Assembly: GCF_019801465.1 (NCBI RefSeq)
Contig: NZ_JAHVJA010000001.1
Location: forward strand, 248,001-312,000
Reading direction: 5' to 3'
DNA length: 64,000 nucleotides
DNA from: Leisingera daeponensis
Lineage (GTDB): Bacteria > Pseudomonadota > Alphaproteobacteria > Rhodobacterales > Rhodobacteraceae
Of this stretch, positions 11,969 to 40,345 are shown one piece after another. The notes below the pieces were generated by a model. It searched no databases. It worked only from the letters and a program-made list of their open reading frames with translations, and had not been told where the DNA came from. Position numbers and translations under genes: made by a program. The stretch's first letter is position 1, and the number at the start of each line of letters is the position of its first letter.

Positions 11969-12751
11969 TCAGAGCGCGTGGCCCAGCACCCGCAAGTAGC
12001 GCCGGACGGCTTCCGGGAAGCCCAGCATCAAGGCATCCGCGGTGAGGCCATGGCCGATCGAGACCTCGGCCAGATCGGGGATGGCCTGGCGCAGTCCGGG
12101 CAGGTTTTCCACGGTCAGATCGTGGCCTGCGTTCATCATCAGCGCGCCCTTGCCGTCCGCGGCCAGCGCGCGGGCGGCGTCGGCAGTGTCCTTAATCTTG
12201 CCAAGTTCCTGCGCAATGGCGCCGGGCGTGGTTTGTTCCGCATAGGGGCCTGTATAAAATTCGATCCGGTCGGCACCGGCCTGCCGTGCCAGCGCCGGAT
12301 CAGACGGGTTTGCATCAACGAAGTAGGAGACCCGGATGCCCGCGGCCTTGAATTCTTCCGCGATAGGCAGGAGCATGCCGCCGTCAGCCGCAAAGTCCCA
12401 GCCGTGGTCAGAGGTCGACTGTTCCGGGGTGTCGGGCACCAGTGTCACCTGGTGCGGCTTATTCTCCAGCACCAGATCGATGAACTGGCGGGTCGGGTAA
12501 CCTTCGATGTTGAATTCGGCCTGAGGGAATTCCTCTGCAATCAGGCGCGACAGGGCGGGCAGGTCGGAGAAGCGGATGTGACGTTCATCCGGCCGCGGGT
12601 GCACGGTGATGCCGTGAGCCCCGGCCTGCAGGATGGCGCGGGAGATGTCGATCAGGTCGGGCCAGGGCACCTCGCGCCGGTTGCGCAGATAGGCAACCGC
12701 ATTGACGTTTACGGACAGCAGGGGCGGGCGCGAGGCAACTGATTGGGTCAT
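11969..12751 (-). CDS. pdxJ: Pyridoxine 5'-phosphate synthase
   Basis: A 260-residue PdxJ, which condenses 1-deoxyxylulose 5-phosphate with 3-amino-2-oxopropyl phosphate (the product of PdxA) to pyridoxine 5'-phosphate. Active-site landmarks are visible: GITVHPRPDERHIR at 47-60 (His51, Arg53, His58), NIEGYP at 81-86 with the glutamate, LVPD, NAGHDLT and EVSIGHGLTADAL for phosphate binding. The N-terminal motif is odd: NVNAVAYLRN in place of the N-I-D-H-V-A-T-L-R-N of E. coli-type enzymes, and the rest looks like the PdxJ type I associate with Bacteroidota. pdxA lies two genes upstream on the same strand. Confidence 0.92.
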   Translation of the reverse strand: MTQSVASRPPLLSVNVNAVAYLRNRREVPWPDLIDISRAILQAGAHGITVHPRPDERHIRFSDLPALSRLIAEEFPQAEFNIEGYPTRQFIDLVLENKPHQVTLVPDTPEQSTSDHGWDFAADGGMLLPIAEEFKAAGIRVSYFVDANPSDPALARQAGADRIEFYTGPYAEQTTPGAIAQELGKIKDTADAARALAADGKGALMMNAGHDLTVENLPGLRQAIPDLAEVSIGHGLTADALMLGFPEAVRRYLRVLGHAL

Positions 12752-12785
12752 TGGAAATTTCAGGCTCCAGCGGAAATGAAATGGG

Positions 12786-13628
12786 TCAGGCTTTGGCGAC
12801 TTCGCGGGCCAGCGCGCAAAACGCCTCGAGGCTAACCTGTTCGGCGCGTTCGGTGGGCGGGATGCCGGCGGCGGTCAGATGCGCCTCGATTTCGGGGGAG
12901 ATGCCCTTCAGCGAGGCGCGCAGCATCTTGCGGCGCTGGTTGAAGGCGGCGGCGACCACGCGCGACAGCACCGCGGCATCTGCCGGGAACCGCGGCTCGG
13001 GCAGGGCGTCCAGATGCACCACGGCGCTGGAGACCTTGGGCGGCGGGGTGAAGGCGCCGGGCGGCAACGACAGAACGATGCGCGCCTCTGCGCGCCATTG
13101 TGCAAGAATGGCAAGGCGGCCATAGGCCTTGGAGCCGGGCTGGGCCACGATGCGCTCGGCCACCTCGCGCTGGAACATAAGCGTGAGGCTCTGCCAGAAC
13201 GGCGGCCACTCCCTGGGGGTCAGCCAGCGCACCAGAAGTTCGGTGCCGACGTTATAGGGCAGGTTGGCGGCGATGCGGATCGGCGGTGTGAGATGTGCGA
13301 GCGGGTCGATCTCAAGCGCGTCGCCGTTGATGACCTCGAAGCGGCCCGGGTAGGCGTCAGCGATCTCCTGCAGCGCGGGCAGGCAGCGCTGGTCCTTCTC
13401 CACAGCCAGCACGTGGCGGGCGCCTTCGGCCAGCAGGCCGCGCGTGAGGCCGCCGGGGCCAGGGCCGATCTCCAGCACGTCGCAGCCGGTGAGGTCGCCT
13501 GCCTGGCGCGCGATCTTGGCTGTGAGGTTCAGGTCCAGAAGGAAGTTCTGCCCCAAAGACTTGCGGGCCGACAGCTGGTGCGTCGCGATCACCTCGCGCA
13601 AGGGGGGAAGGCTGTCGATAGCGCTCAT
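12786..13628 (-). CDS. rsmA: 16S rRNA dimethyladenosine transferase
   Basis: A 280-residue RsmA (KsgA), which dimethylates the two adjacent adenosines in the 3'-terminal hairpin of 16S rRNA late in 30S assembly. The family start LGQNFL is present (residues 25-30), then the SAM loop EIGPGPGG (53-60) and the catalytic NLPY at 122-125. The C-terminal helical domain is complete. The ATG at 13628 is preferred to an in-frame alternative 45 bases upstream because it gives the usual family N-terminus. It lies 84 bases after pdxA, an rsmA-pdxA neighbourhood shared with many proteobacteria. Confidence 0.95.
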
Positions 13629-13712
13629 GTCATCTGAACCTTGCAGTAAGGCGCGGGCGGCGCGCCGGAACATTCATGCCTCCGGCGGGGATATTTGCCG
13701 CCCGGGGAAGAA

Positions 13713-14684
13713 TCAAGTGCCGGCGGCCATGGTCTGCGCCAGCTTCAGCGCCTGGATCAGGCTGGAAGGGTTGGCCTGGCCGGTCCCCGCGATGTCAAAG
13801 GCGGTGCCGTGATCGGGCGAGGTGCGGATGAACGGCAGACCCAGGGTCACGTTGACGCCGCGGTCGAAATCCAGAGTCTTGATCGGGATCAGCGCCTGGT
13901 CGTGATACATGCAGACCGCCGCGTCATAGCGTGCGCGGGCCGCGGCGTGGAACATGGTGTCAGCCGGATGCGGCCCGGTGACGTTCAGTCCCTCGCCCTG
14001 CATCTGCACGATCAGGGCGTTGATCCAGTCGAGTTCCTCGCGGCCCATGGCGCCGCCTTCGCCGGCGTGCGGGTTAAGGCCAGCAACCGCAATGCGCGGG
14101 GAAGCGATGCCGAATTGGTCCCGCAGGCCTGCTGCGGTGATCCCAATGGTTTCGCGCAGCAGTTCCGGGGTGAGTGCGGCTGGCACGTCGGACAGGGCGA
14201 TATGGATGGTGGCGGGCACGACGCGGAGCTGATCGCTGGCCAGCATCATCACCACCCGCTCACGGCCCGCCAGCGCCGCCAGAAACTCGGTATGGCCGGG
14301 ATAGGCAAATCCCGCGCCGTCGATCAGGGCTTTCTTGTGGATCGGAGCGGTGCAGACGGCAGAAGCCTTGCCTGACCGGACCAGCTGCACAGCGGTCTCA
14401 ATGGATTCAATCACCCCGGCGGCGTTGTCCGGGTCAGCCGTCCCCTTAGCTGTTCCGCCGCCGAAGGTGAGCGGCAGCACAGGGAAGCTGTCCGCGCAGG
14501 CTGCGGCTGCCGCGGCAGGGGAAGCGATTTCGGTGACCGGTGTGCCCGCGGGCAGATGCCGGGCGTCGCCGATCCAGAAGAACGGGCAGCTGTCCCGCAG
14601 CGCCTGCCAGGCCTTGACGGCGATTTCCGGGCCGATGCCTGCGGGCTCGCCGCAGCTCAGGGCGATGGGCCCGGGCTGGCTCAT
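13713..14684 (-). CDS. pdxA: 4-hydroxythreonine-4-phosphate dehydrogenase
   Basis: A 323-residue PdxA, which oxidises 4-phosphohydroxy-L-threonine with NAD+ to give, after decarboxylation, 3-amino-2-oxopropyl phosphate for PdxJ. Family features are the GEPAGIGPEIA opening (residues 12-22), TAPIHKKAL, the metal-binding GHTEFLA histidine, and the GLNPHAGEGG and YHDQALIPIK segments that provide further zinc histidines. Its ATG overlaps the surA stop codon by four bases, so it is part of the same transcript as the outer-membrane biogenesis genes upstream. The longer frame reaching to 14819 is overlap with surA only. Confidence 0.95.
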   Translation of the reverse strand: MSQPGPIALSCGEPAGIGPEIAVKAWQALRDSCPFFWIGDARHLPAGTPVTEIASPAAAAAACADSFPVLPLTFGGGTAKGTADPDNAAGVIESIETAVQLVRSGKASAVCTAPIHKKALIDGAGFAYPGHTEFLAALAGRERVVMMLASDQLRVVPATIHIALSDVPAALTPELLRETIGITAAGLRDQFGIASPRIAVAGLNPHAGEGGAMGREELDWINALIVQMQGEGLNVTGPHPADTMFHAAARARYDAAVCMYHDQALIPIKTLDFDRGVNVTLGLPFIRTSPDHGTAFDIAGTGQANPSSLIQALKLAQTMAAGT

Positions 14685-15940
14685 TTGATGTCGATCCGCG
14701 CATCCGCGCGCAGCTGCTCCAGGAAGCTGTCGGTGAGCGAGGTCATCCGCTGTGCGACAAGCGCATTGGCGACGGTTTCGCGGTTGGCGCCTTCGCCCAG
14801 GTCGGCAGTGCGGCCGCACAGCATCAGCACCATCAGGGTCTCGCCGTTGTTGCGGGTCAGCGTGGTGGAGGTTTCACCCGGGTCCAGCTTGGCCAGCTCC
14901 AGCGCGATGTCACGCGGGATATCGGCGGGCGGCAGGCTTTGCACGTCCAGCACCGAGGGATCCTGTCCCTGGGCCAGGCCGTAGAAGTCCTCGCAAGTGT
15001 CGACGCTGTTCACGACCTTCTGCGCCGCTGCCAGCCCTTCCGGTGTGCGGCCGCCGGGCACATAGTAGGTTGCGTATTCGATTGCGGCGTAGCGCGGGGC
15101 GGCGCCTTCGACTTCGCGCACGCCGCGCATCTGGAACAGGGCCACGGCGTTCTGCAGCGGCAGCGGTTCGGAAATCTCCCCCGGTTTCAGCGCCAGCACG
15201 ATTTCCTGCAGCTGCGGCGGCAGCTTGGTCAGCGGCATCCACGGCAGGCGGCCGCCCTCGTTGCGGCTGGCTGCAGCGGAGTACTGGGAGGCCGCTGCGG
15301 CAAAGCTGTCATAGCTCTTGAGCCGGCTCACCTGTTCGATCAGTTCTTCGACCTGGGCGGCGTTCTGCTCATTGATCGGCACAATGAATTCGCTCAGCAG
15401 CACCTGGACGCTGCCGGTGCCGGCGCTGCCCATCGCGCGGTCGATTTCCTCGGGTGTGGGGCGGGCGCGGGACAGGAAACGGGCGCGGGTGTATTCGCGC
15501 CAGCCCAGGCCGATCTTGGTGAAGTCGCGCAGCGTCTGCGGGTCGACGCCCTGCTGCTGCAAGGCAGTCAGGAACTCGTTCAGAGACAGGTTGGCGCGCC
15601 CGGCAAGCTCTTCCATGCCGGCGGTGACATCCTCGTCGGACAGCTCAATCCCGGCCTGCTTCAGCACTTCCAGTTTGAGCCGGTCATTGATCAGCTCCTC
15701 GCGGGCGGTCTCCAGCGGGTCGCCCGGAACCCGCAGCGCCGCCTGGAAGCGGGCCCGCTGCTCCAGTTCGTAGCGGGTGATGACCTCGTCATTCACGGTG
15801 ATTGCGGGAGCAAAAAGGTTCTGTGCCCCGGCCGGCAGGCCGGTCAGGGAAAGACCCGCGGCCAGCGCCAGTGCGGCTGCGGATTTGAGAGCACGGGAAA
15901 GGAAGGGAGCCGGGAACCGGGTATTCACGTCTTGCTGCAT
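14681..15940 (-). CDS. surA: SurA-type periplasmic peptidyl-prolyl isomerase/chaperone
   Basis: A 419-residue exported chaperone that escorts unfolded outer-membrane proteins such as LptD to the BAM complex. It has a signal peptide (about residues 1-39, ending AGA), a SurA N-terminal helical domain opening with VNDEVITRYELEQR, and one rotamase-like parvulin region around 175-275 with GGRLPWMPLTKLPPQLQEIV and LKPGEISEPL. The second parvulin domain of E. coli SurA seems degenerate. Its start lies 16 bases inside the end of lptD and its stop overlaps pdxA, so the order lptD-surA-pdxA matches the enterobacterial operon. Confidence 0.9.
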   Translation of the reverse strand: MQQDVNTRFPAPFLSRALKSAAALALAAGLSLTGLPAGAQNLFAPAITVNDEVITRYELEQRARFQAALRVPGDPLETAREELINDRLKLEVLKQAGIELSDEDVTAGMEELAGRANLSLNEFLTALQQQGVDPQTLRDFTKIGLGWREYTRARFLSRARPTPEEIDRAMGSAGTGSVQVLLSEFIVPINEQNAAQVEELIEQVSRLKSYDSFAAAASQYSAAASRNEGGRLPWMPLTKLPPQLQEIVLALKPGEISEPLPLQNAVALFQMRGVREVEGAAPRYAAIEYATYYVPGGRTPEGLAAAQKVVNSVDTCEDFYGLAQGQDPSVLDVQSLPPADIPRDIALELAKLDPGETSTTLTRNNGETLMVLMLCGRTADLGEGANRETVANALVAQRMTSLTDSFLEQLRADARIDIK

Positions 15941-18105
15941 GACCGCCTGTACTGTTTGTTGCCGCTCTTCACGGAGAAACCGCTGAGCGAGATGGTAAAG
16001 CCGAAATCCGTTGTCGGCTCAACACTTGTTGTTGAGGTATAACGGCGGTTGACCGAAAGGTCGACCGTTACGCACTCGTTCTGATAGGCCACGCCGAGGC
16101 CGGCGCGGGTGGCGCGGGCGTCGGAAATGTCGTAGCGCAGCCGGGCGCTGGCGGACCAGGTGGGGTTGATATCATAGCGTCCGTCGACCCAGATTTCCGA
16201 GCTTTCCTCGGTCCGGTCCTCGTCCGGGTCAGTGCCAAGCCACAGGTAGGTGCCGGACAGGCTGGAGCGGTCTGTGCGCCATTCACCGCGGACTTCGGCC
16301 TTGGAGAAGTTCAGCGAGCCGTTCAGCAGCCCGCGGCTGGAGATCGCCAGCCCGTCGCCGAATTTGACCTGCCCGGCCAGCAGAAGGTCCGAAGAGGTGC
16401 CGCCGAGACCGGAGCTTTTGGTGAAGCGGGTGTCGCCGTCGCTGCGCAGGACCTGGCCGATCGTGGCGTAAGCCTGCCAGCCGTCCGGCGCATAGCGGGC
16501 CCAGTTGGCGCCATAGACCAGGGTGAAGCCGTCCTCGCGCGCATCGTTCGACGGAAAGCGGGACAGCGACAGCAGGTTGCCCTGATCGAATTCCACAAAC
16601 CGGCTCTCCTCGCTGACGACCGTGCCGCCGCCTTCGTCCCGCCAGCCCAATTGCAGGATCGGCTCCAGGTACTGTGTCGCGCCGCCGGCCTCGCGCCGGG
16701 TCATCGGCAGCCGGAACGTCATGGCGCCGCGCGGCGTCAGACGGGTGACATCCTCGGTGAAAAAGGCGTCATCATAGGTCCGGAAGGCATCGGCCGCTGC
16801 GCCGAGCTCGGCCTCTGCCAGGACGCCGTAGCCAAGCGTCCAGGTGCGGGTCCAGCTGAGATCAGCCGTCAGCCGGGCCAGGTCGCGGCCGTTGCTGTCC
16901 GTGGTGGTGGCCTCGAGGCTGGAACTGCGGTGATGGCCGTGGCCCTGAAGAGTCAGACGCATTTCGCCGCCGGTCAGGGCAGGGAAGTAACGCTTCTGGT
17001 AGAAGGCTTCCGCGATGCCGGACGGGATGTCGCTCTGGCGCTCGCTGTCGCGCAGGGTCTTGTAATGGGTCAGTGACGTGCGGAACAGGCTGTCTCGGCG
17101 GGCCCGGGTCAGCTCCGCCCGCGACCGCAGGCGGTCAAGGTCCGGCAGGCCGTAGTCTTCGAGATAGGCATCATCGGAAACCGCCTTGACGTCGAAGGTG
17201 AAGCGGTAGCCGCGCGGCAGCTGGAATGCCCCCTCGCCAAAGAAATATCCGCGGTCCTGATCCGGATACAGGTCGTCCCTGGTGAAGGCGCCGTTAAGCT
17301 CGATACGGCCGCGCCGGAAGGCCTGGCGGTAGCGCAGGTCCAGTGTCCGGGTGCTGGAGGAAATGTAGGGCGCCAGCGTCAGGTCCTTGTGCGGGCCCAG
17401 GGTGAAGAAATACGGAACCTTGATCCCGGTGCCGAGGTTCGAGGTGGAGCGCACGGACGGGACCAGAAAGCCGCTGGCCCGCTCCAGCGAGGGATCCGGC
17501 AGGCGGATTGCCGGGAAATAGAAAACCGGCACGTCCAGCACCCGCAATTGGGCGCCTTCAAAATAGAGCTGGCGCTCCTGCTGATCGTGGGTCACCCGCT
17601 CCGCGCGGATTTGCCAGAGCGGCGGGCGGCCGTCCTCGCAAACATGGCAGGAGGTGACGGCAGTTTTGTAGAGCTGGGTATAGCGCCCGCCGACGCGGGT
17701 CATTTGCAGCGAAGCCAGCTGCAGCTGCTGCTGGAACACCATGCGGGCGCCGCTCAGCAGGCCGTTGCGCAAGTCCTGATCCAGTTCGGCGGCATTGGCC
17801 AGAATGGTGATGTCGCCGTTTTGGTCGATGCGGATCGGGCCTTCGATTTGCAGTGTGCCGGTGCTCTGGTCGAAGGTGATCTTTTTCGCGCGCAACCGGA
17901 TATTGCCCTGAAAGGCTTCGACATTGCCTTCCGCCACCAGGGTGCGGTCGGGGGCGATGAACACCTGGTCGGCGACCAGCATTGCAGGCTGGGCCGGATC
18001 GGGCGGAGTGGCGGTCTGGGCATGCGGGGCTGGTGCGGTCAGCGCCAGCCAGGGCAGCACGGCGGAAAGCAGCAGCGCGCGGCGCAGATTACCCGTCTTC
18101 GGCAT
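15925..18105 (-). CDS. lptD: LPS-assembly protein LptD
   Basis: A 726-residue outer-membrane protein that, with LptE, inserts lipopolysaccharide into the outer leaflet. A signal peptide (about 1-29) is followed by an LptA-like jellyroll (about 38-150: VAEGNVEAFQGNIRLRA, then KKITFDQSTG) and a large beta-barrel domain rich in alternating aromatic residues. A CHVC pair near residues 153-156 and two cysteines near the C-terminus (in NECVTV and RRSCSK) could form the long-range disulfides known from E. coli LptD. It overlaps lptG by 17 bases and surA by 16 bases. Confidence 0.95.
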   Translation of the reverse strand: MPKTGNLRRALLLSAVLPWLALTAPAPHAQTATPPDPAQPAMLVADQVFIAPDRTLVAEGNVEAFQGNIRLRAKKITFDQSTGTLQIEGPIRIDQNGDITILANAAELDQDLRNGLLSGARMVFQQQLQLASLQMTRVGGRYTQLYKTAVTSCHVCEDGRPPLWQIRAERVTHDQQERQLYFEGAQLRVLDVPVFYFPAIRLPDPSLERASGFLVPSVRSTSNLGTGIKVPYFFTLGPHKDLTLAPYISSSTRTLDLRYRQAFRRGRIELNGAFTRDDLYPDQDRGYFFGEGAFQLPRGYRFTFDVKAVSDDAYLEDYGLPDLDRLRSRAELTRARRDSLFRTSLTHYKTLRDSERQSDIPSGIAEAFYQKRYFPALTGGEMRLTLQGHGHHRSSSLEATTTDSNGRDLARLTADLSWTRTWTLGYGVLAEAELGAAADAFRTYDDAFFTEDVTRLTPRGAMTFRLPMTRREAGGATQYLEPILQLGWRDEGGGTVVSEESRFVEFDQGNLLSLSRFPSNDAREDGFTLVYGANWARYAPDGWQAYATIGQVLRSDGDTRFTKSSGLGGTSSDLLLAGQVKFGDGLAISSRGLLNGSLNFSKAEVRGEWRTDRSSLSGTYLWLGTDPDEDRTEESSEIWVDGRYDINPTWSASARLRYDISDARATRAGLGVAYQNECVTVDLSVNRRYTSTTSVEPTTDFGFTISLSGFSVKSGNKQYRRSCSKT

Positions 18106-34049: not shown

Positions 34050-34124
34050 TGGCTCCGGCGGTAGGGATCGAACCTACGACCAATTGATTAACAGTCAACT
34101 GCTCTACCGCTGAGCTACGCCGGA
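34050..34124 (-). tRNA. tRNA-Asn(GTT), copy 1
   Basis: A complete 75-base cloverleaf on the minus strand. The acceptor stem begins TCCGGCG and pairs with CGCCGGA, followed by G as discriminator and an encoded CCA. The D-arm carries AGCTCAGCGGTAGAGC, the anticodon loop reads CTGTTAA with GTT at the anticodon, and the T-loop is GGTTCGATC. It is identical to the second copy about 1.07 kb away. A matching promoter lies upstream and a strong terminator downstream, so this is an independently transcribed gene. Confidence 0.97.
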
Positions 34125-35120: not shown

Positions 35121-35195
35121 TGGCTCCGGCGGTAGGGATCGAACCTACGACCAATTGATTAACAGTCAACTGCTCTACCGCTGAGCTACGCCGGA
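35121..35195 (-). tRNA. tRNA-Asn(GTT), copy 2
   Basis: A second 75-base tRNA-Asn with the same sequence as the copy at 34050, anticodon GTT in CTGTTAA, encoded CCA, and its own promoter and terminator. The identity covers the whole tRNA, while the flanks share only the promoter elements, so this looks like a duplicated transcription unit and not a simple recent tandem copy of a larger segment. Confidence 0.97.
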
Positions 35196-36264: not shown

Positions 36265-37584
36265 ATGTTCTTCCAATGGCTCAAACGATATATGCCGCGC
36301 AGCCTTTATGCCCGTGCGGCCCTGATCCTGGTGGTGCCGATTGTGGCGCTGCAGATCGTGATCTCCGTGGTGTTTATCAAGCGCGATCTTGAGGACGTGA
36401 CGGTGCAGATGACGGCGACCATCCAGCGCGAAATGGAGTTGCTGCGCCAGTTCGCGGATGCCGCACCGGATCAGGAGACGGCGCTGGCGCAGATCGCGCC
36501 GTTACTGCAGCCGTTGCAGATGCAGGCCCGTTTCCTGCCGCCCGGTGCGCCGCTGCCGGAGGATGAGTTCAGCCTGATCGAGTTTTCCGGCCGGGTGGTG
36601 CGGGAGGAAATGGAAAAGACTTTCCCCGGGTTTCTGGCGGCACGGTTCCTGCCTGACAGGATGGTGCAGGTTTACTTCGGCACCGCGCATGGCTTGGTGG
36701 AACTCAGCTTTGACCGCCGCAGGCTGACTGCCGCGGCACCGCACCAGCTGATTGTCACCATGCTGCTGTTCGGTTTTCTGATGATGATGATCTCCTTCCT
36801 GTACATGCGCAACCAGCTGCGCCCGATCAAGCGGCTGGCCAATGCGGCAGAGGCCTTCGGGCGCGGGCGGGCAGTGCCCTATTCGCCTTCCGGCGCAACC
36901 GAGGTTCGGGCCGCGGGCAGCGCCTTTCTGGACATGCGCGCCCGGATTGAACGCCAGATCGAGCAGCGCACGCTGATGCTGTCGGGGGTGAGCCACGATC
37001 TGCGCACCCCGCTGACGCGGATGAAGCTGGAGCTGGCGATGCTGGACGAGGAGGACGCGGCGCCGATGCTGCGCGACGTGGATGAAATGCAGGCGCTTCT
37101 GGACGCGTTTCTCGATTTCTCCCGCGGCGCGGCGGTCAGCGAGCCTGAGCCGGTGGACCCGCAGGAACTGGTCCGCGGTATCATCAGCGACTGGCAACGT
37201 CAGGAGAAGCAGGTGGCGCTGGGCGAAATGACCGGGGCAGGGGAAGTGATGCTGCGCCGCCAGCCGATGCAGCGGGCGGTGTCGAACCTGATTTCCAATG
37301 CGGTGCGCTACGGCTCCAGGGCGCGGGTGTCGGTTGCGGTGACCGACAAATCCATGCGGATCCGGGTCGAGGATGACGGGCCGGGTATCCCGGCAGAGCA
37401 GCGCGGCGACGCCGTGCGCCCCTTCACCCGCCTGGACCCGGCCCGCAATCAGGACCGGGGGACTGGAGTGGGGCTGGGGCTGGCAATCGTGGCCGACACC
37501 GCGCGCGCCCACGGCGGCACCCTGCGGCTGGGTGAAAGTACCGATCTGGGCGGCCTGAAGGCGGATATCGTCATCGCCCGCTGA
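36265..37584 (+). CDS. Orphan sensor histidine kinase (EnvZ-like)
   Basis: A 439-residue membrane histidine kinase. Two membrane helices (about 18-37 and 161-180) frame a periplasmic domain of 120 residues; a HAMP domain follows, then the phosphoacceptor His244 in SGVSHDLRTPLTRM, an N box (NLISNAVRYG), a DDGPGIP G1 box and a GTGVGLGLAIV G2 box. Layout and H-box match the EnvZ group, which senses osmotic or envelope conditions. No response regulator is next to it in the window, so the partner (probably OmpR-like) must be elsewhere. It is monocistronic and is followed by a large hairpin. Confidence 0.88.
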   Translation: MFFQWLKRYMPRSLYARAALILVVPIVALQIVISVVFIKRDLEDVTVQMTATIQREMELLRQFADAAPDQETALAQIAPLLQPLQMQARFLPPGAPLPEDEFSLIEFSGRVVREEMEKTFPGFLAARFLPDRMVQVYFGTAHGLVELSFDRRRLTAAAPHQLIVTMLLFGFLMMMISFLYMRNQLRPIKRLANAAEAFGRGRAVPYSPSGATEVRAAGSAFLDMRARIERQIEQRTLMLSGVSHDLRTPLTRMKLELAMLDEEDAAPMLRDVDEMQALLDAFLDFSRGAAVSEPEPVDPQELVRGIISDWQRQEKQVALGEMTGAGEVMLRRQPMQRAVSNLISNAVRYGSRARVSVAVTDKSMRIRVEDDGPGIPAEQRGDAVRPFTRLDPARNQDRGTGVGLGLAIVADTARAHGGTLRLGESTDLGGLKADIVIAR

Positions 37585-37667: not shown

Positions 37668-38852
37668 TCAGGCAAATTCCTTGGACAGGGTATTGAACCC
37701 GGTTTCGATTGCCGAAGCAGCTTTGACCAGGTTCTCCCCGCCGGAGGCGATGCTGGTAACCGTGGTGCCGAGGCCCAGGCTGCCGACCCAGATCACCCAC
37801 TTGGCCCACACCGGATCCTTGTGGCGCAGGGCGTCGACGGCTTTCTGCGAGTTGTCGCGGAACTTCTCGGCGGGCTTGATGCTGACGTGATAGGCTTCGA
37901 TGCTCTTGATGAGCCGGGCGGTTTCCTTGCGGGCGGCCTCCATGGCGGTAAACAGCCCGTCCAACTTCTTGCTCTTGTAGCCCCGGTCCTTGGCCATCTT
38001 GCCCAGTTTCTTCTCGATCTCCTTGTCGAGCTTGCTCTGCTTGTCCAGAAGCTTGTTCAGCTCCTTCCCGAGGGCGGCAATTTCCAGGTCGATGTTCTTG
38101 AGCTTGGCCTTGTAGGTTTCCAGGTGCTTGTCGACCCGGTTGAAGCCTGCAGTCTCGACCATCAGGAAGTCGGCCAGGATCTCCTTGCCGATCTCCTTGG
38201 CTTTCACCTTGGCCTTGGACTGATTCTCATAGGCCGAGACCAGCTGCTTCAGCGCTTTCTCAAGTTCGCCATGGATCTTCACGATATCAGAGGTCACCTT
38301 CTGCACAGCGCGCGCGACCGAGACAATACTCTGCGCGATGCCATAGATGCTGGCGGCGATTGACGCGCCGCCGGTCACCGTACCGGCGGCCAGCGAGGCG
38401 GTGGAGCCAATGGCGCAGGCGCTGCCGAGCACAATCGCGCTGACCACCTTGATGCGGTACTTCTTGCGGTCCTTGTTGGCCTGTCTCCACTTGTCGAAAT
38501 GCTTGGTCGCGACATGTTCAATCGACTTTTCATACTTGGAAAAGATCTTCTTGATGTCGGCGTCCAGCTCTTTGCATTCCTTGTCGGTCAGCGGCAGGAC
38601 CGATCCCAGGTTGTTGGCTGCGTCCACCCGCAGGGTGCATTCGTTCAGCAGCTTTTTGTATTCCTTGGTGGCATCATCATAGAGCTTGGCGACAAAGCGG
38701 GCGTCAGTGTCGAGCTCCTTGGCAACACTCTTGTCCACCTCGACCGTGGCCGCAAAGTTCATATTGCCGAGTTGAACGAACTTCGGTTTCACCTTCTTGG
38801 TGACCTCGTTCTTCACGTCAGCCTTGATGATAGTGAGCTTTTCTGTCGCCAT
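37668..38852 (-). CDS. Uncharacterised helical protein with internal hydrophobic hairpin
   Basis: A 394-residue, lysine-rich protein with no signal peptide. Long charged helices (about 40-130 and 183-345) surround a glycine/alanine-rich hydrophobic segment at 136-182 that could form a membrane hairpin, and a second hydrophobic stretch lies near the C-terminus (348-381). The layout resembles alpha-helical pore-forming toxins of the ClyA/Hbl/MakA type, which are soluble helical bundles that insert a hydrophobic head, but no sequence identity is claimed. Its lysine-rich, arginine-poor composition differs from its neighbours and recalls the RGS-like protein at 3349, hinting at a distinct origin. 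It is divergent from the spike genes with a 358-base gap. Function unknown. Confidence 0.6.
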   Translation of the reverse strand: MATEKLTIIKADVKNEVTKKVKPKFVQLGNMNFAATVEVDKSVAKELDTDARFVAKLYDDATKEYKKLLNECTLRVDAANNLGSVLPLTDKECKELDADIKKIFSKYEKSIEHVATKHFDKWRQANKDRKKYRIKVVSAIVLGSACAIGSTASLAAGTVTGGASIAASIYGIAQSIVSVARAVQKVTSDIVKIHGELEKALKQLVSAYENQSKAKVKAKEIGKEILADFLMVETAGFNRVDKHLETYKAKLKNIDLEIAALGKELNKLLDKQSKLDKEIEKKLGKMAKDRGYKSKKLDGLFTAMEAARKETARLIKSIEAYHVSIKPAEKFRDNSQKAVDALRHKDPVWAKWVIWVGSLGLGTTVTSIASGGENLVKAASAIETGFNTLSKEFA

Positions 38853-39210
38853 GACTCATTGCCTCTGAATTGATCTTGCGGCGGGGGCAACGCCTGAAAA
38901 CAGTCTCGAAATTGCTACGGAAAAAGTGATTTGCCCTGTTCTTAGGCCACCCTACCGGACGTCGGGGATTATAAAAGCAAAATGCTTGCGGCCGGGTAAC
39001 GGCAGCAAGGGACGGCGGCATTGTACGCGCGTTGCCTGTTCGGCTTCGTCTGGTGCCGCCGCAAAGAGCTGCCCCCTTCAGCAAACTGCAATGTGTTGCG
39101 CCGCGTGCCCGGGCAGCGAACGCCGGGTTTTCCGGATTTTGGTATTTTGCCGGTATCTCTCTGGTTTCGGGGAAGCAGACCTGAAGCGCAACACATCGGG
39201 GAATTATCTC
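38853..39210. promoter_or_regulatory. 358-base region between divergent genes
   Basis: No gene is supported here. The stretch is less GC-rich than its surroundings and must hold the promoters of the helical-protein gene (minus) and of the spike genes (plus). An 11-base inverted repeat, ATGTGTTGCGC at 39091-39101 and its exact complement at 39186-39196, lies just before the ghsA start; it could be a regulator site pair or the base of a large mRNA hairpin. A smaller TTTTCCGGATTTTGG element sits between. Confidence 0.5.
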
Positions 39211-39474
39211 ATGCCACAGATCGACCCTTTCACCAGTTTCCGCCGCGGACTTGAAAGCCCGGCCACCCACCATATTGCAATTACACCGCAGGACGGCGTG
39301 GATCTGCCGGTAAGGCCGCGCGTCCTCAGGGTGCTGGCTTCTGGCGACCTCGCAATGCGCGACGAAGCCGGGACCGTGATTACCTATGCCGTCACGGCTG
39401 GCGAAACCATCGGCTTCTCAGCTGCAGGCATCGAGGCAACGGGCACCACCGCATCCGTTGCAGGGTGGTACTGA
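39211..39474 (+). CDS. ghsA: Gene transfer agent head-spike base protein (GhsA-like)
   Basis: An 87-residue protein matching the size and type of the spike base protein of the Rhodobacter capsulatus gene transfer agent (rcc01079, GhsA): PFTSFRRGLESPATHHIAITPQDGVDLP near the start, then VRPRVLRVLASGDLAMRDEAG and a TITYAVTAGETIGFSAAGIEATGTTA beta-rich end. In R. capsulatus, GhsA and GhsB form fibres on the capsid that bind the cell capsule. The ATG at 39211 has GGGGA nine bases upstream. It overlaps ghsB by one base (TGATG), the sign of coupled translation. As in R. capsulatus, the pair is away from the main GTA cluster. Assignment is from recalled family features. Confidence 0.78.
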   Translation: MPQIDPFTSFRRGLESPATHHIAITPQDGVDLPVRPRVLRVLASGDLAMRDEAGTVITYAVTAGETIGFSAAGIEATGTTASVAGWY

Positions 39475-40178
39475 TGCTGGGCCTGGGGTTTTCCGTCACG
39501 GGCGCAGGAGTGCAGGGGCCAGCCTCCCGTCCTGCCGTGAACGGCCTGATTGGATGGTACAGCGCCAAGGCAACGGGAACCATCACGCGCGGGGCGGGGG
39601 AGGAAGTCATCAGTGTCGCGAACCTGGTTCCCGGAGGCGCGGCTCTCGGCAGACTGTCGGGCGGGGGGCCAGTTTATGTGGCTTCAGCCCCCGTGGCAGG
39701 CGGGCGTCCGGCGCTGGTCTGGCCGGATGCGGCCAACGCCAGAGGTCTGACGCTTGCATCGGATGCTCTTGTCAGGGAAGTGTTTGCTGTCATGGCCTAT
39801 GCCGACGGTGCGCGCAGCGCATTTGACACCTACAACACCCTCACGACCGACCTTGCGGGCCTCGATTCCAGCAGTGCCAACCGGGTTATGGGCCATGAGA
39901 ATAACGCCGGCATCTTCACGGCTTCATTGCCGCCCGGGATGACAGTCCACCTGAACGGCGGAGGTGCCACGACCTCACTGCTGCCGATGCCATTGTCAGT
40001 GCTCCACATAAAATCCGCCTCCCCGTTTGCGCTGGCTTCAATCGGCGGGCGCAATAACGGGTCCAGCCGGGCGTGGCGCGGTCCGGTGTGCGAGGTGCTG
40101 GCCTATACTGACGCACTGGATGCAGCCGGGGTCAGCAGAAATGTCAGCTATCTGAAGGACGGCTGGGGAATCAGCTAG
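39474..40178 (+). CDS. ghsB: Gene transfer agent head-spike fibre protein (GhsB-like)
   Basis: A 234-residue protein directly coupled to GhsA. It is beta-rich with a LamG/concanavalin-like pattern (NGLIGWYSAKATGTITRG, ALVWPDAANARGLTL, RAWRGPVCEVLAYTDAL, then a C-terminal YLKDGWGI), the type found in phage head decoration and receptor-binding fibres. In Rhodobacter capsulatus the equivalent, GhsB (rcc01080), is needed for binding of GTA particles to the polysaccharide capsule of the recipient. The ATG at 39474 overlaps the ghsA stop. Residues of the likely binding face cannot be read. No other GTA or phage genes lie in the window. Confidence 0.75.
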   Translation: MLGLGFSVTGAGVQGPASRPAVNGLIGWYSAKATGTITRGAGEEVISVANLVPGGAALGRLSGGGPVYVASAPVAGGRPALVWPDAANARGLTLASDALVREVFAVMAYADGARSAFDTYNTLTTDLAGLDSSSANRVMGHENNAGIFTASLPPGMTVHLNGGGATTSLLPMPLSVLHIKSASPFALASIGGRNNGSSRAWRGPVCEVLAYTDALDAAGVSRNVSYLKDGWGIS

Positions 40179-40269: not shown

Positions 40270-40345
40270 TGGTAGGCCCGGCAGGATTCGAACCTGCAAC
40301 CAAAGCGTTATGAGCGCTCTGCTCTAACCGTTGAGCTACAGGCCC
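40270..40345 (-). tRNA. tRNA-Ile(CAT), lysidine type
   Basis: A 76-base cloverleaf on the minus strand with anticodon CAT in loop CTCATAA and encoded CCA. The acceptor arm has C4-G69 and C5-G68, the pairs that mark substrates of TilS in E. coli, so the CAT anticodon is read as isoleucine after lysidine modification and not as methionine. The 1-72 pair is G-U, which is weak. The T-loop is GGTTCGAAT. Elongator tRNA-Met is the alternative but fits the acceptor-stem identity less well. Confidence 0.82.

Follow-up and report, generated by a model that had tools for sequence, protein, structure and literature searches.

A head-spike gene pair of the gene transfer agent type in Leisingera daeponensis, with a conserved base and apparently exchangeable fibres

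Introduction

Gene transfer agents (GTAs) are particles that ferry DNA from cell to cell. Which cells receive this DNA is an open question; a tip that varies while its socket stays constant would account for shifts in the choice of recipient as capsules change. The question is raised here by two coupled genes, ghsA and ghsB, at positions 39211 to 40178 of a 64,000-nucleotide stretch of DNA from the marine bacterium Leisingera daeponensis (hereafter the window; positions 248001 to 312000 of contig NZ_JAHVJA010000001.1, in a genome of 4.89 Mb). An earlier note, made from the sequence alone, had likened them to the head-spike genes rcc01079 and rcc01080 of the Rhodobacter capsulatus GTA (RcGTA). 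We conclude that the pair is probably the head-spike module of the RcGTA-type GTA of Leisingera, a fixed mount with exchangeable, capsule-tracking tips. The base and the GTA belong to what is known already; the part of interest is the in-place change that follows a short plug at the start of the fibre, together with the spread of the module over stand-alone, prophage and polysaccharide contexts. In the titles and abstract openings of the literature, we found neither fibre exchange at a fixed ghs locus nor a general link between ghs and polysaccharide genes, and PMC5026251 may already hold some of it, so that we do not call either unpublished. According to a 2026 preprint, the dispersal of GTA loci may allow faster evolution of some of the genes (PMC13420450; here and below, PMC numbers stand for excerpts of the papers cited).

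A coupled base-fibre pair and a distant GTA cluster

Both genes are intact and overlap by one base, at the TGATG junction that the earlier note had described as translational coupling (Table 1). GhsA matches the NCBIfam model NF048002 (spike_base, 'spike base protein, RCAP_Rcc01079 family') over residues 5 to 87 with 87.5 bits (cut-off, 28; E = 5e-25), the PDB chain of Rcc01079 with E = 2e-19 and phrog_12296 with E = 6e-19, which bears out the proposed resemblance of the first gene to rcc01079. It is also 48% identical to the base of R. capsulatus SP108. Residues L14-E15-S16-P17 align with LESP of RcGTA, and E15 is nearly invariant among 12 aligned bases; in the RcGTA base, E12 is the glutamate that docks to the capsid (PMC7296036). 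Since these matches are joined by that of GhsB to phrog_11772 (E = 2e-49), the gene pair is not a product of chance. Judged by its sequence, the ghsA product is an ordinary member of the known GTA spike-base family.

The main GTA cluster that had been predicted elsewhere in the genome lies on the same contig. Specifically, GTA_TIM occupies positions 702160 to 703047 within a run of RcGTA-type genes whose near end, at ~700.5 kb, is ~413 kb from ghsA. By NCBIfam, the run encodes megatron and an RcGTA-type tape measure (NF048004, 1907 bits; NF058675, 350 bits) as well as distal tail and hub proteins (TIGR02217 and TIGR02218), and it also holds an HK97 portal and a capsid that scores 595 bits to Rcc01687; its large-terminase candidate had no NCBIfam match. 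The GTA of this genome is an ordinary member of a known family, and GTA_TIM was present in all 21 Leisingera genomes searched. In a wider sample of the family, GTA_TIM occurred in 30 of the 31 ghsA-bearing genomes versus 99 of the 118 others (one-sided p = 0.047), but the co-occurrence is weak, given that 129 of the 149 genomes carry the GTA anyway.

The pair itself proved to be far from other phage-like genes, as the earlier note had held. Among seven neighbouring proteins, no match was to a PHROGs family named as structural (several were to families of unknown function), and 20 GTA and prophage baits, a limited set, matched nothing in the window at 1e-5; by these searches, the locus does not lie in a phage gene cluster, as a prophage tail fibre module would. 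The RcGTA head spike (GhsA-GhsB, rcc01079-rcc01080) shares with the window pair its base family, the coupling of the genes, the plug peptide and a position away from the GTA cluster. In contrast, the RcGTA spike genes adjoin capsule genes (PMC10218006), none of which was detected beside the window pair.

A plug-like N-terminus and a predicted lectin fold in GhsB

The N-terminus of GhsB alternates in its hydrophobic residues (positions 2, 4, 6 and 8), like the peptide that docks the RcGTA fibre into its base; RcGTA has a fifth hydrophobic residue at position 10, where the Leisingera GhsB has Gly. We found these four positions to be hydrophobic in 73, 61, 80 and 71%, respectively, of 51 fibres, i.e., those of the named loci (51 of 80) in which the genes overlap by 1 bp and the fibre reaches 150 amino acids (aa) or more. 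At positions 3, 5 and 7 of the same fibres, hydrophobic residues accounted for 12, 10 and 4% and Gly for 67, 65 and 45%. In comparison, the hydrophobic share was flat (22 to 29%) at the starts of 1170 control open reading frames (ORFs); the controls are every frame in these loci that starts with ATG and runs to 150 aa or more, and they contain false ORFs as well as the fibres. A stricter form of the pattern occurred in 43 of 63 fibres versus 51 of the 1170 control starts. All fibre statistics use 51, 56 or 63 of the 80 named loci, uncoupled, incomplete or too-short ORFs having been dropped and near-identical relatives kept. The alternating plug is the strongest evidence that these fibres would dock in the way of RcGTA.

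The earlier note had also likened the second gene to rcc01080, which held for its position, its coupling and its first ~9 residues but not for its body: against the N-terminal 187 residues of the R. capsulatus SP108 GhsB, the only part compared, the best blastp E-value was 3.7. The two fibres also differ in length (325 aa in RcGTA [PMC7296036] versus 234 aa here), with bodies unrelated by sequence over the part compared. GhsB matches phrog_11772 (E = 1.6e-49), a family of unknown function; it matched no PDB chain by sequence or profile search, no Pfam domain above the cut-off and nothing in a protein-level phage search, and six other fibres likewise had no Pfam domain at 0.01. The structure prediction that had been suggested for this protein gave a model with a pTM of 0.75 and a mean pLDDT of 69.5. 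A structure look-up with this model returned 54 viral models at E ≤ 1e-3, several of them named concanavalin-A-like lectin (individual chains were given no meaning). The body is predicted to be a concanavalin-A-like lectin jelly roll, and from this fold and the RcGTA precedent we infer a lectin-like domain for the surface polysaccharide of recipients.

Fibre classes differ at a fixed chromosomal site

At E = 0.01, ghsA was found in 17 of the 21 Leisingera genomes: 14 have a base of full length with an identity of 67% or more, two have only broken copies (G149 and G159) and one has only a distant copy (G160). The 16 intact Leisingera pairs, three of which lie in prophages, hold four fibre classes (I, 3 loci; II, 6; III, 6; IV, 1) with no blastp match between classes at E = 1e-3. 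The class I fibre of the window occurs in 2 of the 21 genomes, this one included, and is therefore no trait of the group, so that the suggestion of a binding domain that may be specific for this group's capsule has to be reworded.

The window pair lies at a site (site A, between a kinase-like gene and a tRNA-Met gene; Table 1) that is common to 11 of the 21 genomes, including this one. Synteny with the window extends upstream in all 10 other genomes and downstream in 7 of the 10, and the downstream synteny recurs in a Pseudophaeobacter metagenome-assembled genome (MAG). Site A holds six intact pairs, one base without a fibre and four decayed bases (G152, G159, G158 and G149). Class I is found in the genome of the window (G000) and in G155, and class II in G165, G151, G161 and G157; in these class II carriers, the identity of the base to GhsA of the window is 90, 89, 86 and 78%, respectively. 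Nucleotide identity between G000 and G165, G151 and G161 is 70 to 78% in ghsA and 81% in nucleotides 1 to 27 of ghsB, falling to 53 to 60% beyond, whereas in the same-class comparison with G155 it stays at 73 to 77% beyond the plug. Upstream regions at five unlinked sites (L111 and L117 to L120) reached 45 to 57% in the same kind of alignment. The simplest reading of these alignments is that the fibre has been replaced at site A.

More broadly, 56 fibre bodies from named, mostly alphaproteobacterial genomes fell into 20 BLAST clusters; the ghsA loci were chosen by base similarity, so that the bases form one cluster by construction. In Pseudophaeobacter, the downstream genes of site A adjoin a fibre (L155) whose first ~90 residues are similar to class II (best E = 4e-11). 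Clustering at E = 1e-5 over at least 60 residues nevertheless separates this fibre from class II, and we do not claim class II as ancestral. As a separate observation, G156 (L109) has an intact base at site A and no fibre gene, which amounts to a natural fibre deletion.

Points against a GTA spike with exchangeable tips

Several observations weigh against the proposed head-spike module with exchangeable, capsule-tracking tips. To begin with, both the particles and the spike on them are predicted from genes. With respect to the fold, a Foldseek search of the PDB with the GhsB model returned no match at E ≤ 1e-3, and the model is of low confidence at residues 1 to 16 and 112 to 152, which leaves the plug without a confident model. 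The same kind of jelly roll also occurs in glycosidases, and GhsB might be an enzyme that cuts polysaccharide rather than a pure binder, which we consider unlikely. With respect to replacement, the identity of G157 is already lower before the junction, at 64% in the final third of ghsA and 63% over the plug, making the junction less sharp, and when the profiles of classes I and II were compared, the alignment covered only residues 1 to 41, with 63% probability; the two classes could be remote relatives of one fold, separated by deep divergence rather than by replacement.

Finally, ghsA was not detected in 4 of the 21 genomes, was broken only in two and distant in one, yet all have GTA_TIM, so the spike module is dispensable. 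Another reading is that this lineage has given up the use of the module, which is falling into decay, as the four broken copies and the fibreless one among the 11 at site A might suggest, along with G159, which is broken despite flanks 84 to 88% identical to the window on both sides. However, the window and Leisingera sp. ANG1 each have an intact pair, the proteins being 95% (base) and 79% (fibre) identical, and we regard disuse as very improbable.

The same module in prophages

Three Leisingera genomes (L111, L119 and L117) also carry base-fibre pairs surrounded by phage genes (tape measure, endolysin and central tail fibre). The Leisingera sp. ANG1 prophage pair, at 629 kb of its contig, resembles that of the window in its base (79% identical), its class I fibre (66%), its plug and its 1-bp overlap; it differs in lying among phage tail and lysis genes and in lacking the upstream motif described below (L144). 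Furthermore, the base gene of phage RcapNL is coupled to a 144-aa ORF, relatives of the base are encoded at 79 IMG/VR loci (bases only were compared), and for R. capsulatus phages, homologues of both rcc01079 and rcc01080 have been published (PMC8601537). The window pair might accordingly be a prophage spike, left behind or borrowed, whose place is on phage capsids instead of GTA particles. Against this stand the absence of any detected phage structural gene around the pair, the sharing of site A by 11 Leisingera genomes and, downstream, the Pseudophaeobacter MAG, the presence of GTA_TIM throughout Leisingera, and the finding that the homologous base of R. capsulatus sits on GTA particles (PMC7296036). 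Taken together, a phage role for the window pair seems rather improbable.

Spike genes beside polysaccharide genes

Six Leisingera genomes carry class III at another site (site B), with a shared upstream flank. The pair on the 115-kb plasmid NZ_CP083559.1 of Leisingera sp. S132 is like that of the window in its base (79% identical), plug-like N-terminus, 1-bp overlap and upstream motif; unlike it, the pair has a class III fibre of 545 aa and lies within an exopolysaccharide cluster (tyrosine autokinase, sugar transferase, YjbH, exosortase and glycosyltransferases). The class III copy of G152 is on a 3.5-Mb contig, and the class IV copy of G168 adjoins UDP-glucose-dehydrogenase-like and epimerase-like genes, so named by reading the sequence, and a Pfam-confirmed polysaccharide flippase. 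No class III fibre was found in viral contigs in a scan for close relatives. No genome among the 21 combines an intact copy at site A (6 genomes) with one at site B (6 genomes); in a set of this size, such a pattern would arise by chance ~9% of the time, and we do not claim mutual exclusion.

Polysaccharide baits, taken from Leisingera loci after site B had been seen and then tested on 30 other genera, matched 13 of 30 ghsA loci; among 40 control stretches taken from those contigs, they matched 6 (one-sided p = 0.009), and four of these six matches include a broad epimerase bait. Phage baits matched 0 of these 30 loci and 1 of the 40 control stretches. Among 110 near neighbours (gene calls by a codon-score script), Pfam identified glycosyltransferase-1 (6), sulfotransferase (5), polysaccharide flippase (4), glycosyltransferase-2 (4) and UDP-glucose dehydrogenase (3), a tally in which one protein may match several families. 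In comparison, 110 control proteins (118 picked, less 8 from L392 and L393 to equal the neighbours) gave two each of glycosyltransferase-2 and epimerase and at most one of any other named polysaccharide family. Against PHROGs, the 25 families listed of 57 matched by near neighbours included no structural name; many were unnamed and one was an integrase. Linkage of spike and capsule genes thus appears to be a wider tendency in the family. The window locus itself lacks it, as no polysaccharide bait matched the window at 1e-5.

In the exopolysaccharide cluster of L112, the neighbours of the class III spike include an RTX calcium-binding repeat gene (12307 to 14667) and a gene with DUF2793 and Peptidase_G2 (14950 to 16137), the latter possibly another particle fibre. 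In R. capsulatus, a calcium-binding RTX-like protein represses RcGTA expression (PMC10218006).

A proposed fixed mount for variable tips

If the pair serves the Leisingera GTA, as we favour, GhsA pentamers would sit on the five-fold vertices of the capsid and the N-terminus of GhsB would plug into the five pockets of the base ring, both by analogy with RcGTA and the latter in keeping with the sequence pattern observed. The rest of GhsB would then be the part that binds the recipient. The tip would be modular because only the plug has to fit the base. The class II relatives at site A have no detectable similarity past about codon 9, which replacement would best explain, and prophages are a plausible source of fibres because that of ANG1 holds a class I body 66% identical to GhsB together with base and plug. 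As a likely consequence, the target of the particle could shift when the capsule of a population changes.

We also propose, tentatively and with somewhat more doubt than conviction, that across Alphaproteobacteria GhsA and the nine-residue plug form a standard socket, with unrelated sugar-binding tips swapping among GTAs, prophages and capsule-synthesis clusters. Tip and capsule genes would often be linked, so that key and lock travel together and steer transfer to capsule-matched kin; such linkage would bear on why GTAs persist. The cells bound by a given GhsB should follow fibre class and cell polysaccharide type.

Upstream motifs and neighbouring features

The head-spike genes of R. capsulatus respond to CtrA and GafA (PMC9638019). 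In Leisingera, GTTGCG-N19-ACGC is shared by the intact ghsA copies of both site A and site B, upstream of the gene, and is missing from the ANG1 and ANG-M1 prophage copies (L144 and L154); this form occurs at nine places in the window's genome at ≤1 mismatch (control, 3). The GTA operon promoters of Leisingera carry a related element with the same half-sites and N10 spacing, its template matching 12 of 19 promoters. The operon element occurs at five places in the genome at ≤2 mismatches (reversed-pattern control, 1), including sites near pilus-like and transporter-like genes, as judged by reading the sequence. When up to 102 regions upstream of ghsA were scanned with the operon matrix, a single one (L153, 20.8) scored above the best of 765 control stretches (15.8). 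The spacing differs and both kinds of element recur elsewhere, so we treat shared regulation of ghsA and the GTA as a lead only, the motifs being no evidence of co-regulation.

In most of the 19 Leisingera GTA operons (L240 and others), a CGTTGCG..CACCGTACGC-like element lies upstream of a promoter-like stretch, TTGACTTTT..GTATAGGTTG. It is a candidate regulator site, and the identical string turns up at a few other positions in the window's genome.

Table 1. Positions in the window of the spike genes and of features around them
Feature	Position	Strand	Description
ghsA	39211..39474	+	Head-spike base, 87 aa, Rcc01079 family
ghsB	39474..40178	+	Head-spike fibre, 234 aa, class I (phrog_11772); body a predicted concanavalin-A-like lectin jelly roll
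TGATG stop/start overlap	39472..39476	+	Translational coupling, from sequence
Plug, codons 1-9 of ghsB (MLGLGFSVT)	39474..39500	+	Residues 2, 4, 6 and 8 hydrophobic; identity to three other-class congeners collapses beyond
Upstream motif GTTGCG-N19-ACGCC	39095..39124	+	Shared in Leisingera by the intact ghsA copies of both sites, A and B; not GTA-specific
tRNA-Met	40270..40345	-	Right-hand boundary of syntenic site A
Histidine-kinase-like gene	36265..37584	+	Left-hand boundary of site A; named by sequence reading, with one PHROGs match named kinase

Upstream of ghsA, positions 37668 to 38852 on the (-) strand encode a 394-aa, lysine-rich, coiled-coil-like protein with a hydrophobic segment (by sequence reading), which matched no Pfam domain above the cut-off and no PHROGs family. 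This gene has a GC content of 57.4% versus 63.9% for the window, and in G165, G151 and G161 it lies downstream of ghsB, as if it had switched sides. To the left of site A, two tRNA-Asn(GTT) genes with similar flanks (34050 to 34124 and 35121 to 35195, both on the [-] strand) lie ~1 kb apart.
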